From IMG/VR virus record IMGVR_UViG_3300048813_000093, positions 1 to 20,779 of that record: a stretch of DNA of 20,779 bases. One strand, written 5' to 3'. Origin of the DNA: a virus. Position numbers and translations under genes: made by a program. This document shows positions 1,449 to 19,126 of the stretch, in pieces (within the stretch, counting starts at the first letter, position 1; each line of letters begins with the position of its first letter). Below the pieces are notes generated by a model. It did no database searches, had not been told where the DNA came from, and saw only the letters and a program-made list of their open reading frames with translations.

Positions 1449-2081
1449 TCAGGCAACCCGACGGCCGACGATGGCCGGCGGCAGATCACCAGTCTCCATC
1501 GGACGCGGCGCGGCCATCGGCCGATTGGATTCCGGTCCCTGCTGCGCAGGCTGGGCAACCGCCATCGCTTTGCGTGGGCGACCGGGTCCGCGGCGCGCGG
1601 CGGCCTGCGCTTCCGGCAGATGCGGCATCGCCGGAATCTGGCCGTGCTGCACCGGCATCTTGATCTCCGGCACCGGCACGGTATCGGCCTTGGCGTCGGC
1701 CATGGCAGTGTCGATCAGCGTGTTCCGATCGGTCACCAGGCCATAGAAATGCCGGCCGCGGCGTGCCGCCATTTCCCGGGCGCCGTCGGTCTGAAGGTCG
1801 ATCTCCACCTGCAGGCGCCGACGCGCGGCGTCGTTCTGCGGCACCATCGTCAGGTTCGGCGGGTCCGTGTAGTCGATGATCGAACCGCGCTCGAAGTAGG
1901 TGTCGTCGTAGTAGCCCGGCTCGTTGAGCAGGTAGCGGGGCACCTCGCCGCGGAACTGGCCCTCGACCACATTGGCCTGAAGCGCCGCCAGCGCCCGCCG
2001 GAGTTCCGCGTTCTCGCGGACCAACGTCGAGTTGCCGTCGTGCTGCATCGCGACTGCGGATGCGCTGTTTTCGTCGGACAT
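1449..2081 (-). CDS. Conserved phage structural-region protein with coiled coil and AT-hook-like motif, 210 aa
   Basis: The ATG at 2081 has AAGGAG (2090-2095) 8 bases upstream. Residues about 20-38 (RENAELRRALAALQANV) form a short coiled coil. The middle holds a YLLNEPGYYDDTYFERGSII block and a GLVTDRNTLIDTA block that look like a conserved phage family of unknown function. Near residues 160-171 is RRGPGRPRKA, with the GRP core of an AT hook, then a Pro/Gln-rich tail that is probably disordered. It lies between the cement protein and the jelly-roll protein, so it is probably a virion or assembly protein. The AT-hook-like stretch suggests contact with DNA, but this is inference. Confidence 0.6.
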   Translation of the reverse strand: MSDENSASAVAMQHDGNSTLVRENAELRRALAALQANVVEGQFRGEVPRYLLNEPGYYDDTYFERGSIIDYTDPPNLTMVPQNDAARRRLQVEIDLQTDGAREMAARRGRHFYGLVTDRNTLIDTAMADAKADTVPVPEIKMPVQHGQIPAMPHLPEAQAAARRGPGRPRKAMAVAQPAQQGPESNRPMAAPRPMETGDLPPAIVGRRVA

Positions 2082-2093
2082 TCAGCAAACTCC

Positions 2094-2122
2094 TTGCTGG
2101 GACAATACCAAACCTGTATACT
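2094..2122 (+). promoter_or_regulatory. Promoter for the plus-strand HNH gene, predicting a leaderless mRNA
   Basis: TTGCTG at 2094-2099 and TATACT at 2117-2122 are separated by exactly 17 bases, close to the sigma-70 consensus. The expected transcription start (6-8 bases after the -10 box) coincides with the ATG at 2130, and there is no Shine-Dalgarno sequence before that ATG. A leaderless transcript is therefore expected. The promoter lies upstream of, and points away from, the minus-strand gene that starts at 2081. Confidence 0.6.
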
Positions 2123-2129
2123 GGCCCAC

Positions 2130-2642
2130 ATGAGAAAGAGAGAAAAACGGCTGCTGACACACGCCCGTCTGGTCGAAGTCCTCGACTACGATCCCGTCAC
2201 AGGTTTCTTCACCTGGAAGCATCGCGCCGACGCGCTGCCGCGCTGGAACACCCGCTATGCCGGCAAGCGAGCCGGGCAGCTTATGGCGAAGGGCTATCGG
2301 CTCATCGCCATCGACAGAGGTATTCCCCAGTACGCCCACCGCCTCGCATGGTTCTACGTGCACGGCGAGTGGCCGCCCAGCGATCTCGACCACGAGAACC
2401 GGCGACGCGACGACAACTGGATCGACAACCTGCGGCCGGCGACCAATTCCCAAAACGGGATGAACAAGAGTGGCGTTCGCGGCGTCAGCTTCTACCCGCC
2501 CACCGGGAAATGGCGAGCGCGTATCAGCGTAGACAAACGCGAAGTCTATCTCGGTTACTTCCTGACGGAAGCCGAAGCGATGGCAGCTAGACGGGAGGCC
2601 GCCGAGAGACTTCATGGTGAGTTTGCCGGCCACCTTCGTTAA
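2130..2642 (+). CDS. HNH homing endonuclease with AP2-type DNA-binding domain, 170 aa
   Basis: A free-standing phage HNH-AP2 nuclease. Residues about 69-105 form the HNH core: AHRLAWFYVHGEWP, then DLDHENRRRDDNWIDNLR and the ATNSQN tail. Residues 114-145 are an AP2 domain (SGVRGVSFYPPTGKWRARI, then YLGYF). The N-terminal section (LVEVLDYDPVTGFFTWK) is the usual leader of this family. It is the only plus-strand gene inside the minus-strand virion operon. It has its own promoter at 2094-2122 with the ATG at the predicted transcript start. Its stop codon overlaps the cement-protein stop by 3 bases. The orientation, promoter and lack of overlap with neighbours mark it as a mobile insertion. Longer upstream starts in the frame run antisense through the 210-aa gene and are rejected. 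Confidence 0.9.
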   Translation: MRKREKRLLTHARLVEVLDYDPVTGFFTWKHRADALPRWNTRYAGKRAGQLMAKGYRLIAIDRGIPQYAHRLAWFYVHGEWPPSDLDHENRRRDDNWIDNLRPATNSQNGMNKSGVRGVSFYPPTGKWRARISVDKREVYLGYFLTEAEAMAARREAAERLHGEFAGHLR

Positions 2643-12089: not shown

Positions 12090-12109
12090 GTCTGCGCTCT
12101 TGCGCAGAC
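12090..12109 (+). terminator. Perfect 8-bp hairpin downstream of the glycan operon
   Basis: GTCTGCGC-TCTT-GCGCAGAC is a perfect 8-bp GC-rich stem with a 4-base loop, 19 bases after the stop at 12071. No run of T follows, so it is not a standard intrinsic terminator. It may end or attenuate the operon, protect the transcript, or mark the insertion site of the neighbouring transposon. Confidence 0.45.
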
Positions 12110-12147
12110 GTCACCTGTCGAGCCACCATCCAGGGGCGAAGTTACAC

Positions 12148-12176
12148 TTGACAAACCCAACCTCCATATATAGATT
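12148..12176 (+). promoter_or_regulatory. Transposase promoter
   Basis: A consensus -35 TTGACA (12148-12153) is followed after 17 bases by TAGATT (12171-12176). The AAGGAG ribosome binding site (12184-12189) and the ATG at 12199 follow. The spacing and boxes make this the strongest promoter seen in the window, and it belongs to the insertion element rather than the phage operon. Confidence 0.65.
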
Positions 12177-12198
12177 GGCGGTCAAGGAGTTAGCCGCC

Positions 12199-13146
12199 AT
12201 GAAGACCACCGCACTTTCCGCCCCGCATCTTCAACATGAGGACGCCGCCTTCGCATATGTCGAGGCGAAGCTGTGGCCCGATGGTCCAGTTTGCTCGCAC
12301 TGCGGCGTGATCGGGCAAGCTGGCAAGCTCCAGGGCAAGAGCGTCCGGCCCGGCTTGTGGAAGTGCTACGCCTGCCGCAAGCAGTTCACCGTCAAGATCG
12401 GGACCATCTTCGAGGCCAGCCATGTGCCCCTGCACATCTGGTTGCAGGTCATCTATCTGATGTGCAGCAGCAAGAAGGGCTTCAGCACCCGCCAGATACA
12501 CCGGACTCTCGGCGGCAGCATGAAGACCGCTTGGTTCCTCGGCCATCGCGTGCGGGAAGCCATGAAGGAAGTCCGCGATCTCTACACCCCACCGCTTGGC
12601 GGCGCTGGCGAAGTCATTGAGGCGGATGAGACTTTCATCGGCCGGAAAAGCAAAAGCAAAGCCTTCAAGCCGCCTGGCGTGAAGCAAGCCGTCATGTCGC
12701 TGGTGGAGCGCGGCGGCAAGGTGCGGAGCTTCCACGTCCCGAACGTGACCGCCAACAACCTGCGTCCGATCATCGGCCGCCACGCGCACCCGGATTCCCG
12801 CTTCATGACCGATGAGTCGCTCATCTACACCGGGATAGGCTGGAATTTCGCCGATCACGGCACCGTGAACCATAGCATCGACGAATACGTGCGAGGCGAT
12901 GTCTATACCAACACCGCCGAAGGCTACTTCTCCATCCTCAAGCGCGGTATTTACGGGGTTTATCAGCACGTTAGCGAGGCCCACCTGAAGCGGTATCTGG
13001 CCGAGTTTGATTTCCGCTACTCCAACCGGATCAAGCTCGGCATCGACGACGCACAGCGCGCCGATCTCGCCCTGGTCGGTGCCAAAGGCAAGCGGCTGAC
13101 CTATCGAACAATTAGTGGAAGCCGGACAGCGCCGCCTGCCGCCTAA
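12199..13146 (+). CDS. IS1595-family transposase, 315 aa
   Basis: The ATG at 12199 follows AAGGAG by 9 bases. The N-terminal zinc ribbon has C32, C35, C56 and C59 (VCSHCG and KCYACRKQF). The catalytic DDE/N core (ISXO2-like) shows VIEADETFIGRK (D143), SRFMTDESLIY (D204) and NTAEGYFSILKRGIYGVY (N238/E241), with the family's HxxxYLAEFDFRYSNR ending. The full length is kept and no frameshift is seen, so the enzyme could be active. It sits between the glycan operon and two bacterial-looking genes in the same direction. A longer in-frame start at 12061 is rejected because it precedes the promoter. Confidence 0.92.
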   Translation: MKTTALSAPHLQHEDAAFAYVEAKLWPDGPVCSHCGVIGQAGKLQGKSVRPGLWKCYACRKQFTVKIGTIFEASHVPLHIWLQVIYLMCSSKKGFSTRQIHRTLGGSMKTAWFLGHRVREAMKEVRDLYTPPLGGAGEVIEADETFIGRKSKSKAFKPPGVKQAVMSLVERGGKVRSFHVPNVTANNLRPIIGRHAHPDSRFMTDESLIYTGIGWNFADHGTVNHSIDEYVRGDVYTNTAEGYFSILKRGIYGVYQHVSEAHLKRYLAEFDFRYSNRIKLGIDDAQRADLALVGAKGKRLTYRTISGSRTAPPAA

Positions 13147-17562: not shown

Positions 17563-18534
17563 TCACCCTGGTGCTGCAGCGAATAGCGGTGCGTCCGCTC
17601 CAGACACATGCGCAATCCGCCGGCGGCAATCCTCGGCTGACTGCGGATCCCGCTCGATCATGGTGCAGTTGAAGCCCTCCGCCATCGCGGCCATGCCGGT
17701 CGTGCCACTGCCGGCGAAGGGGTCGAGGATGTGGCAGCCCGGCGAACCGACCAGCCGCGCCAGATACCGAATAAGGTCGACCGGCTTGACGGTCGGGTGT
17801 TTCGAGCCGAGCCGGTCTGCAGCGTCAGCTTTGCTCGTGTAATGAAACCGCTTCGGCTCGCAATCCGATCCCCCAAGACCCGCGCTCGGAAGCGTGATGT
17901 CGAATGTGACAGCGACGGCAGAGCCACCGAATTTCGAGAGGCTTGCTGTAATCGTCGTGATGTCGGTCTGCTTTGGGGTTGCTGCACACTCCACAAGGTC
18001 GCTTTTCAGGGTAAGCCTTTGCGGCTGCAGCCCGCGCGAGAACCTTTGCGCGATATTGAGGGTCAGCCCTATAACGCTGTCGCATAGCGTCCTTAATTCG
18101 ACCGCCGATACGCTCGTAGAGGGTGCCCGGTAGCTTTGCCAGATCGCCGCCAATCCGGCTGTTGTTTGCTCCACTGCACTGCATAGAGCAGAAGCGGCGA
18201 GTTCGCTTTGCAGGTCGATAGCTGACCCCGCACCGCTCACATTGATAAATGCGTTCCATTCGTCCTCGCTGTAGGGGCATGATTTAAAGAAACGTGCTGC
18301 CGAACCGGCGTCGCCGCGGGGATCAGCGCCGCCAATTCGGGCGCGCATCCCGGAGAACGACACAGCGCCGCTAAAACCGTTCGCTGTCGGTTCGTTGCCT
18401 GTCACGCGGGCTTGCTGGCCCGGCGCATTCGGGAACGCCGCCAGGACTTCATCGCTGCCGGGATTCGGGAGTTTTGCGAACAGCGCCTTGAGATGCGGCG
18501 GCAACTTCGCCCATTCTTTTTCACCGATCTGCAT
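17563..18534 (-). CDS. C-terminal (AdoMet-binding) half of a split phage DNA adenine methyltransferase, 323 aa
   Basis: The half begins with the phage-methylase segment EWAKLPPHLKALFAKLPNPG, then SDEVLAAFPNA, and reaches DAGSAARFF at residues 75-83. A run of 146 extra residues follows, then FHYTSKADAADRLGSKHPTV and KPVDLIRYLARLV, then LDPFAGSGTTG (residues about 271-281), the AdoMet-binding FxGxG motif of beta-class methylases. In ordinary members ARFF and HYTSKAD are adjacent. The extra residues are the alternative-frame reading of the HNH gene 17825-18259. The ATG at 18534 has GGGAGGA 6 bases upstream, inside the end of the HNH gene 18521-19126. The DPPY half is separate (19113-20510). Confidence 0.75.
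   Translation of the reverse strand: MQIGEKEWAKLPPHLKALFAKLPNPGSDEVLAAFPNAPGQQARVTGNEPTANGFSGAVSFSGMRARIGGADPRGDAGSAARFFKSCPYSEDEWNAFINVSGAGSAIDLQSELAASALCSAVEQTTAGLAAIWQSYRAPSTSVSAVELRTLCDSVIGLTLNIAQRFSRGLQPQRLTLKSDLVECAATPKQTDITTITASLSKFGGSAVAVTFDITLPSAGLGGSDCEPKRFHYTSKADAADRLGSKHPTVKPVDLIRYLARLVGSPGCHILDPFAGSGTTGMAAMAEGFNCTMIERDPQSAEDCRRRIAHVSGADAPLFAAAPG
17825..18259 (-). CDS. HNH endonuclease nested in the C-terminal half of the methyltransferase, 144 aa
   Basis: Residues 7-28 are a zinc finger (YQCERCGVSYRPA, then RRFCSMQC), then a basic helical linker, then PCGVCSNPKADRHHDDYSKP and LEIRWLCRRCHIRHH at 88-122: two Cys pairs with the HH catalytic pair of phage HNH proteins. The ATG at 18259 has GAGGA just upstream; an ATG at 18280 is possible. 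It lies in the +2 frame relative to the methylase, and its last codons cover the methylase YTSKAD codons. The insert is about 438 bases, almost exactly the HNH gene, so there is no room for a self-splicing intron. Confidence 0.85.
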   Translation of the reverse strand: MERIYQCERCGVSYRPAKRTRRFCSMQCSGANNSRIGGDLAKLPGTLYERIGGRIKDAMRQRYRADPQYRAKVLARAAAAKAYPEKRPCGVCSNPKADRHHDDYSKPLEIRWLCRRCHIRHHASERGSWGIGLRAEAVSLHEQS

Positions 18535-19126
18535 GGAACGTCCTCCCGTGTTCTGTGTAATGGCACGGCTGGCAGAGCGCGGTGCCGCCATCAAGGCACC
18601 ACAGAACGTCGGCATGTCGGCGCGCATCCTCGCGGGACCGGATGCCAAGCCGCTCAATCAGTTCGGCCAGCGGCGGCGCATGGTGGCTTTCGAGGGCTTC
18701 GGTCGCCCCGCACCCTTGGCAAACGCCGTCACGCTGACGCACCGCTTCCATCCACCGCCGGTTCTCCGTCATCTGCCGGATGGATGTGTTCAGGCGCGAG
18801 ACGCCGCCCTTCCAGTTGTAGGCGTTCTCGCCCCGGTGACTTTCGCCGCGCGCCACCGCTCGATCTGGATGCGCTGCCCAGAATGCCTTGCCTGTCTCGC
18901 CAATCTTTCGCTTCGAGTCATCTCGATGCCGATATCCAGCGCGGTGATTTGTGCCTTTCGGCCTGCCGAGCCGAAGCCCAGCCTGCTGCGCGTCTGTGAC
19001 GCCGACGATTCTCTGTGCTTCGCTACGGCAGTTCATGCAGGCTGCAAAACGTGATCGCGCCGCATCCGATGGCCGCCGATAAAGCGGCTTCTCACATAGA
19101 ATGCATTTTGTATTAGGCGTTCTCAC
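18521..19126 (-). CDS. HNH endonuclease that splits the methyltransferase, 201 aa
   Basis: I placed the start at GTG 19126 (AGGTGG upstream) because the protein then begins like the third HNH: VRTPNTKCILCEKPLYRRPS; an ATG at 19189 is possible but its binding site is too close. Modules in order are a zinc pair region (C8, C11, then CMNC), a NUMOD3-like GRPKGTNHRAGYRHRDDSKR stretch, a YNWKGGVSR patch, and the HNH core VCQGCGATEALESHH, then WCLDGGTALCQPCH. The upstream methylase frame stops at 19113, just inside this gene. Its last codons contain the GGGAGG site for the second methylase half. Confidence 0.85.
   Translation of the reverse strand: MRTPNTKCILCEKPLYRRPSDAARSRFAACMNCRSEAQRIVGVTDAQQAGLRLGRPKGTNHRAGYRHRDDSKRKIGETGKAFWAAHPDRAVARGESHRGENAYNWKGGVSRLNTSIRQMTENRRWMEAVRQRDGVCQGCGATEALESHHAPPLAELIERLGIRSREDARRHADVLWCLDGGTALCQPCHYTEHGRTFHADR
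18541..18547 (-). promoter_or_regulatory. Strong ribosome binding site for the second methylase half, inside an HNH gene
   Basis: On the minus strand GGGAGGA lies 6 bases before the ATG at 18534. It sits within the HNH codons for HGR, 18 bases before the HNH stop. It allows ribosomes to start the AdoMet-binding half independently, which is what a split enzyme would need. Confidence 0.6.

Follow-up and report, generated by a model that had tools for sequence, protein, structure and literature searches.

To our knowledge, there is one studied case in which a selfish endonuclease splits an enzyme and tails rebuild that enzyme, the NrdA protein of phage Aeh1. In the work of Friedrich in 2007 and of Crona in 2011, the Aeh1 nrdA/mobE arrangement is said to involve neither an intron nor an intein, and the unique tails at the break are said to be interaction domains; this mechanism has reportedly been proposed as possibly general. 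The accessible portions of two papers describe how nrdA of Aeromonas phage Aeh1 is split by the HNH endonuclease gene mobE (PMC2988022, PMC3267527), and those of the first list T4 gene 60/mobA and Aeromonas phage 25 gene 43A/43B among endonuclease-associated splits of phage enzymes (PMC2988022). DNA methylases made of two polypeptides are represented by M.AquI and M.EcoHK31I, according to the available part of the source (PMC3404938). In this study we consider it fairly probable that an HNH gene of a viral contig, HNH2, represents the fission of a phage methylase by a free-standing endonuclease that comes with a tail and a head, leaving a two-subunit enzyme. We regard this split as one of the Aeh1 NrdA kind in another host gene, a DNA methylase. 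Aeh1 nrdA/mobE is its closest precedent, since in both an HNH endonuclease gene, homing in Aeh1 and putatively so here, splits an enzyme gene into two polypeptides. However, the present case differs from Aeh1 in its host gene, in its recurrence at many distinct loci, in the transfer of tail, HNH2 and head as a block, and in splits that persist without HNH2 or with another HNH gene, while no enzymology is available here. The T4 and phage 25 splits differ from it in concerning other genes and in being single cases. M.AquI and M.EcoHK31I also consist of two polypeptides, but they are C5 methylases with another break, and no endonuclease between their halves is mentioned in the accessible part of that source. 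Our search of the open-access literature, which returned reviews of T4-type mobile elements and papers on the ShiLan domain, found no report of an endonuclease-split methylase with tails; subscription papers were mostly outside this search. Neither is a split methylase described in the available portions of the ShiLan papers (PMC11855218, PMC9957025).

The stretch of DNA analysed here, referred to as the window, covers positions 1 to 20,779 of IMGVR_UViG_3300048813_000093, a virus record of 20,779 bases, and its phage-type genes include matches to major head protein and phage lysozyme profiles. Both methylase halves match Pfam N6_N4_Mtase, with DPPY in the N half and DPFAGSGT in the C half, in agreement with a preliminary description of this DNA that had assigned them as a catalytic and an AdoMet half. 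With PF01555 and with DPPY ahead of FxGxG, the gene meets the criteria of a beta-type N6/N4 DNA methylase, this motif order being the one named the 'beta' class. The same description had the upstream methylase frame ending 14 bases into the HNH gene and the downstream half restarting in another frame at ATG 18534, 6 bases past GGGAGGA. Both placements are exact: the N-half stop TAA lies at 19115-19113, and GGGAGGA is followed by CGTTCC and then by the ATG, which is in a frame different from that of HNH2 and 14 nt upstream of the end of the HNH2 stop. The features of the locus are listed in Table 1. Elsewhere in the window, a Dam-like N6-adenine methylase (PF05869; 17615-17022, minus strand) lies directly downstream of the split methylase, a tRNA gene (Rfam RF00005) occupies 16801-16728 on the minus strand, and an IS1595/ISXO2-type transposase gene is found within the phage record at 12106-13146 on the plus strand. 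There are at least five HNH genes in the window, including further ones at 3955-3194 (minus strand) and about 2037-2642 (plus strand), with matches to HNH/HNH_5 and to HNH_3 with weak AP2.

Table 1. Features of the split methylase locus (window positions)
Feature	Coordinates	Strand	Remarks
Methylase N half (catalytic half)	20510-19113	-	ORF; ATG 20510, TAA 19113; Pfam PF01555 E 1.6e-14
DPPY motif of N half	20417-20406	-	
HNH1, out-of-frame in N half	19972-19460	-	GTG start; methylase frame open through HNH1
C-terminal tail region of N half, LSYPEDEYILRPDTTAEQRQELFRWLSENA	19205-19116	-	Conserved in 22 distinct carriers
Split-specific tail part of LSYPEDEYILRPDTTAEQRQELFRWLSENA	19181-19116	-	
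N-half end/HNH2 start overlap	19126-19113	-	14 nt
HNH2 endonuclease gene	19126-18521	-	GTG 19126, TGA ending 18521; 201 aa
GGGAGGA, ribosome-binding-site-like	18547-18541	-	Within HNH2 His-Gly-Arg codons
HNH2 end/C-half start overlap	18534-18521	-	14 nt
N-terminal head of C half, MQIGEKEWAKLPPHLKALFAKLPNP	18534-18460	-	
Methylase C half (AdoMet half)	18534-17563	-	ORF; ATG 18534; Pfam PF01555 E 2.7e-13
HNH3, out-of-frame in C half	18259-17825	-	Methylase frame open through HNH3
DPFAGSGTT of C half	17724-17698	-	

The HNH2 protein of the window has no match in a Pfam scan. It does match PHROG HNH profiles (E 1.7e-5 and weaker), and relatives exceed the Pfam cut-offs for HNH (L092 and L101) or HNH_2 (L090 and L101), on which grounds we treat HNH2 as an HNH endonuclease. 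A first scan of viral contigs, using HNH2 of the window and of locus L006 as queries, found 19 loci, all flanked by methylase pieces, and a wider scan placed 26 of 27 loci in a methylase, the 27th (L243) being an unrelated HNH. With near-duplicates left out (L087, L091, L098, L240 and L242), the HNH2 family comprises 22 distinct loci including the window, always at the same site of a beta-type N6/N4 methylase. All HNH2 proteins compared begin with [M/V]RTPN. Between the N-half stop and the HNH2 start, the overlap is 14 nt in 19 of the 22 loci, 20 nt in L096 and L238 and 77 nt in L239. A C-half start, whose codon was chosen by us at each locus, was located in 21 loci, and its overlap with the end of HNH2 measures 10-14 nt in 16 of them and 4-41 nt in the rest; no head was detected in L102 despite the presence of HNH2. 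Because the arrangement recurs in 22 distinct loci with conserved overlaps, it goes beyond chance. A genome scan with the HNH2 alignment returned no relatives, so HNH2 was seen in viral contigs only; in phage records, a tblastn search gave two weak partial matches and a search with the L089 cassette gave none, and a scan with the window C half as a lone protein query also found no match. The proposal of the preliminary description that GGGAGGA in the last HNH codons acts as a second ribosome binding site gains comparative support from the Arg codon of the HGR triplet, which makes a Shine-Dalgarno-like AGG. This codon is AGG or AGA in 18 of 21 HNH2 genes, compared with 144 of the 483 Arg codons found elsewhere in these genes (Fisher p 3.4e-7, with related genes treated as independent; L102, which has Lys at that position, was left out). 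Tandem copies, two or three, of this methylase type were also observed in L034, L036, L037, L039, L049, L052 and L080.

Our alignments further reveal matching ends at the break. A conserved tail (consensus RWPAN.ILSYPEDEY.LR.D.T.EQ..EL..WL.ENA) ends every N half, and a conserved head (M.IDE..Y..MP..L..LF.KLPNPGSDEV) opens every C half found. Both are missing from uninterrupted methylase relatives, which have RWPANVIHDGSDEV at the break site, and in the first methylase scan a tail match was present only in L006 among the 82 loci examined. Three more uninterrupted methylases, L273, L274 and L276, came from a tail-only scan that gave 33 loci; L273 reads RWPANLILSYPEDEYDDAGNLLPNPGKDEV at the break site and the other two are similar. 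As DNA identity among these three is about 65% in the vicinity of the site (260-264 of 401), we take the L273-type sequence as the native empty site of the subtype. It follows that LSYPEDEY, in the tail region, and LPNP, in the head, probably represent native methylase sequence, and that about 22 residues of the tail and about 20 of the head are additions specific to the split. AlphaFold models of the L006 and L100 halves, each folded as a single chain and with modest confidence (pLDDT 69.8 and 72.2), predict that the tail ends in a helix (residues 353-366; block means of 81 and 62) and that the head forms two short helices (block means of 74 and 80). The nearest solved relatives of the halves by sequence or fold are CcrM, M.RsrI and M.BceJIV, which are single-chain enzymes, whereas the HNH2-split methylase has two chains. 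Foldseek TM-scores of the half models to the query are low, mostly 0.15-0.3; with single chains, modest confidence and such scores, the models support the methylase assignment only. That the matching tail and head hold the two halves together appears probable, but this is an inference without binding data.

These features suggest the following mechanism. HNH2 would be a free-standing HNH homing endonuclease residing in the gene of an orphan phage N6/N4-type DNA methylase, at an insertion site, GRWPAN...(G)SDEV, that separates the target-recognition region from the AdoMet-binding part. It is inferred to cut uninvaded methylase genes and to be copied into them by homing. The methylase would be broken into two polypeptides whose start and stop codons overlap, one catalytic (DPPY) and one AdoMet-binding (DPFxGSG), all parts presumably lying on one transcript, and the C half would be initiated from the Shine-Dalgarno-like site encoded in the HNH2 His-Gly-Arg codons. 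The element would supply a C-terminal tail to the N half and an N-terminal head to the C half, as short helices docking the halves into an active two-subunit methylase; in the absence of biochemical data, both methylation activity and tail-to-head binding are inferred. By its sequence the locus satisfies what characterizes Aeh1 NrdA, namely two ORFs, uninterrupted relatives, retained motifs and extra tails, with activity and a need for the tails again inferred.

The cassette has left traces of movement. Between L086 and L089, which come from different contigs, tail, HNH2 and head share about 97% identity, whereas synonymous sites of the methylase flanks are at or near saturation: synonymous differences are 0.75 in the N core and 0.69 in the C core, compared with 0.05 in the tail, 0.08 in HNH2 and 0.07 in the head. 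The near-identical block extends from the GRWPAN codons to just past DEVL, and identity drops to about 45% beyond it; L090 shows a similar but less clean step against L093 and L099. Given a near-identical block between saturated flanks, tail, HNH2 and head must have been transferred together at least once. On a tree of 136 methylases, the 13 HNH2 carriers kept require 11 changes, at least five of them forced by well supported branches, and since 31 of 500 shuffles were as low as this, the carriers are barely clustered. The distribution of HNH2 among methylases, as far as this tree reflects it, is patchy. Together, these comparisons support the view that the insertion of the cassette is old and mobile rather than a local event, although of homing itself only the expected trace, block transfer and patchiness, has been tested.

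Splits without HNH2 bear on whether the endonuclease made the split or only settled in it. In L266 and L268 HNH2 is nearly all gone, with few start and end codons left (MR.. and ..KCHYK), but there are still two ORFs with tail, head and both methylase motifs (L269-L271 do not differ from L268 in the 2,700 bases compared). In L250 the split is retained around an HNH2 without its first part, and the DPPY pattern was not found in its N ORF. In L277, tail, head and overlapping ORFs surround a different endonuclease (HNH_3 + NUMOD3) that has no meaningful BLASTP similarity to HNH2. The survival of the split and its tails after the loss or replacement of HNH2 is the best evidence that it is the two-part methylase, rather than the endonuclease, to which the tails are of use. 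The same loci could also be read as a methylase that first existed as two genes with tails, into which HNH2, like the L277 enzyme, moved later as a tenant of a permissive junction. A similar doubt has been raised for gene 43 of phage 25, as the accessible text of that paper indicates (PMC2988022). This later arrival would gain further support from mycobacteriophage methylases that are split elsewhere, such as Jebeks gp54 (L245), which end in KLRLRADLTPEQVDHVVARLREAGVEID at another gene position, with the C part as a separate ORF. The Jebeks/Malithi-type tail matches the profile of HNH2 tails (p 2e-4 in comparison with shuffles), and 10 of 1,223 ORF ends reach its score; we interpret the four that exceed it as HNH2 tails and the six that equal it as copies of the Jebeks-type tail, the ends themselves not being listed. 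Nevertheless, L266 and L268 retain the first and last HNH2 codons, from which we infer that they lost HNH2, and tail, HNH2 and head move together with tight overlaps. We consider a later arrival unlikely, though it cannot be dismissed, and favor an endonuclease-borne split, the first occurrence of which may have been due to HNH2 itself.

The mycobacteriophage splits have features of their own. Jebeks-type tails occur in 84 phage records, with ShiLan (gp65) among the matches listed. In Malithi (L244, 1860-3100), but not in Jebeks, the methylase parts are separated by an ORF on the opposite strand that shows DUF559 and weak Vsr similarity, and the similarity between the Malithi-type head and the HNH2 head is not significant (p 0.15). 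The C part in these phages is further disrupted, with HPT, a stop and then VKP in another frame, and for this reason we do not claim that the Jebeks-type split methylase works. Since HNH2 and the unrelated HNH_3 + NUMOD3 enzyme share tail and head, and a related tail occurs at a second split site, we tentatively raise the possibility, which we would not yet back over its negation, that tail and head form a portable split-and-dock module moving between phage genes with, and partly independently of, the endonuclease.

The comparison of synonymous and nonsynonymous changes, which had been put forward as a check on the two halves, was carried out for both. Pooled over six close pairs, dN/dS is 0.26 in the N core, 0.15 in the tail (156 codons), 0.12 in HNH2, 0.15 in the head (104 codons) and 0.41 in the C core. 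The flanks are partly saturated, the C-core value is not strong constraint, and two short C-core comparisons of 22 codons each gave dN/dS above 1. On these rates N half, C half, tail and head are all under purifying selection. The preliminary description had supposed that a two-subunit methylase was created by insertion and kept by selection; retention of the split by selection is supported by conservation across divergent phages and dN/dS below 1, while two-subunit function is still an inference without activity data. One could argue instead that the methylase is dead or dying, a non-essential gene in which the HNH genes merely hitchhike. The DPPY motif occurs in 20 of the 22 N halves and FxGSG in 17 of the 21 C halves; the N-half ORFs of L096 and L099 are without the DPPY pattern, in L099 through a frame break, and of the C halves lacking FxGSG, that of L093 ends at the contig end, those of L084 and L085 retain HPTVKP and that of L097 has neither. 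In addition, a related actinophage methylase has been argued to be dispensable (PMC11855218). However, pN is well below pS in the halves, tail and head, including among HNH2-free splits and from these towards the carriers. Moreover, none of the 65 HNH1 loci counted has a stop in the methylase frame, where a total of 465.3 would be expected (third frame 636 against 582.9), indicating selection for a translated methylase. We regard a dead methylase as quite improbable. With the same arrangement and matching ends in many phages, the split looks like a working, inherited state rather than damage.

HNH1 and HNH3, which did not figure in the finding of the preliminary description, add about 167 and 126 out-of-frame residues to the window halves. 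At HNH3, methylase-frame stops are likewise absent from 30 of 30 loci against 22.4 expected. These counts cover HNH1 loci L156-L235, with 13 of 80 dropped by length, flank or identity filters and L172 and L185 excluded for another frame offset, and HNH3 loci L103-L135, with 3 of 33 dropped by the same filters. Because their methylase frame is stop-free, we assign both to the read-through ShiLan kind, the ShiLan domain being a hidden out-of-frame HNH in actinophage methylases, as far as the portions of the papers available indicate (PMC11855218, PMC9957025). Like HNH1 and HNH3 of the window, it is an HNH in the same kind of phage methylase and neither an intron nor an intein; it keeps the methylase frame open, whereas HNH2 breaks the frame and brings tails. 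Judged by the stop counts, HNH1 and HNH3 are under strong dual-coding constraint at two fixed methylase sites, and selection for an open methylase frame at insertions of the ShiLan kind is now measured. HNH2, in contrast, fails this criterion: over the 22 loci, methylase-frame stops number 266 in the N-half frame against 289.0 in synonymous-codon shuffles and 182 against 173.3 in the other. As stops are at chance level, HNH2 really splits the methylase and, by the same counts, represents another life style, at a third position in this gene. No group I or II intron was found at HNH2, only the tRNA passing Rfam gathering scores in the window, and Pfam scans detected no intein domain in the halves, whose split-specific ends are only about 20 aa each; intron, intein and read-through were rejected for HNH2 on these scans and stop counts. 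That RNA splicing, protein splicing, bypass or frameshifting still yields a single methylase across HNH2, as the read-through indicated by the sequences at HNH1 and HNH3 of the same gene might suggest, is hardly tenable against these results and against a tail and a head that are conserved as protein termini, the one with a stop and the other with a start of its own. A further HNH insertion, bordered by a duplicate of the GTALKPxxE codons, was seen within the GTALKP region in L097, L121, L135, L162, L207, L238 and L273, and possibly represents the ShiLan site itself.

In summary, on sequence evidence alone, HNH2 is a real, conserved and mobile gene-fission element in a phage methylase. Comparison of the loci establishes the two-ORF arrangement, selection on all its parts, the persistence of split and tails without HNH2 and, in one phage pair, the transfer of tail, HNH2 and head as one block. 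Empty sites, carriers, endonuclease-free remnants and an endonuclease swap make the generality of the Aeh1-type mechanism directly testable, and they bear on how selfish genes stay harmless without splicing and on the origin of two-subunit enzymes. The short tail and head may serve as a natural split-protein pair. If the module is indeed portable, selfish genes would spread with their own protein-reassembly kit, turning single enzymes into lasting two-subunit enzymes.
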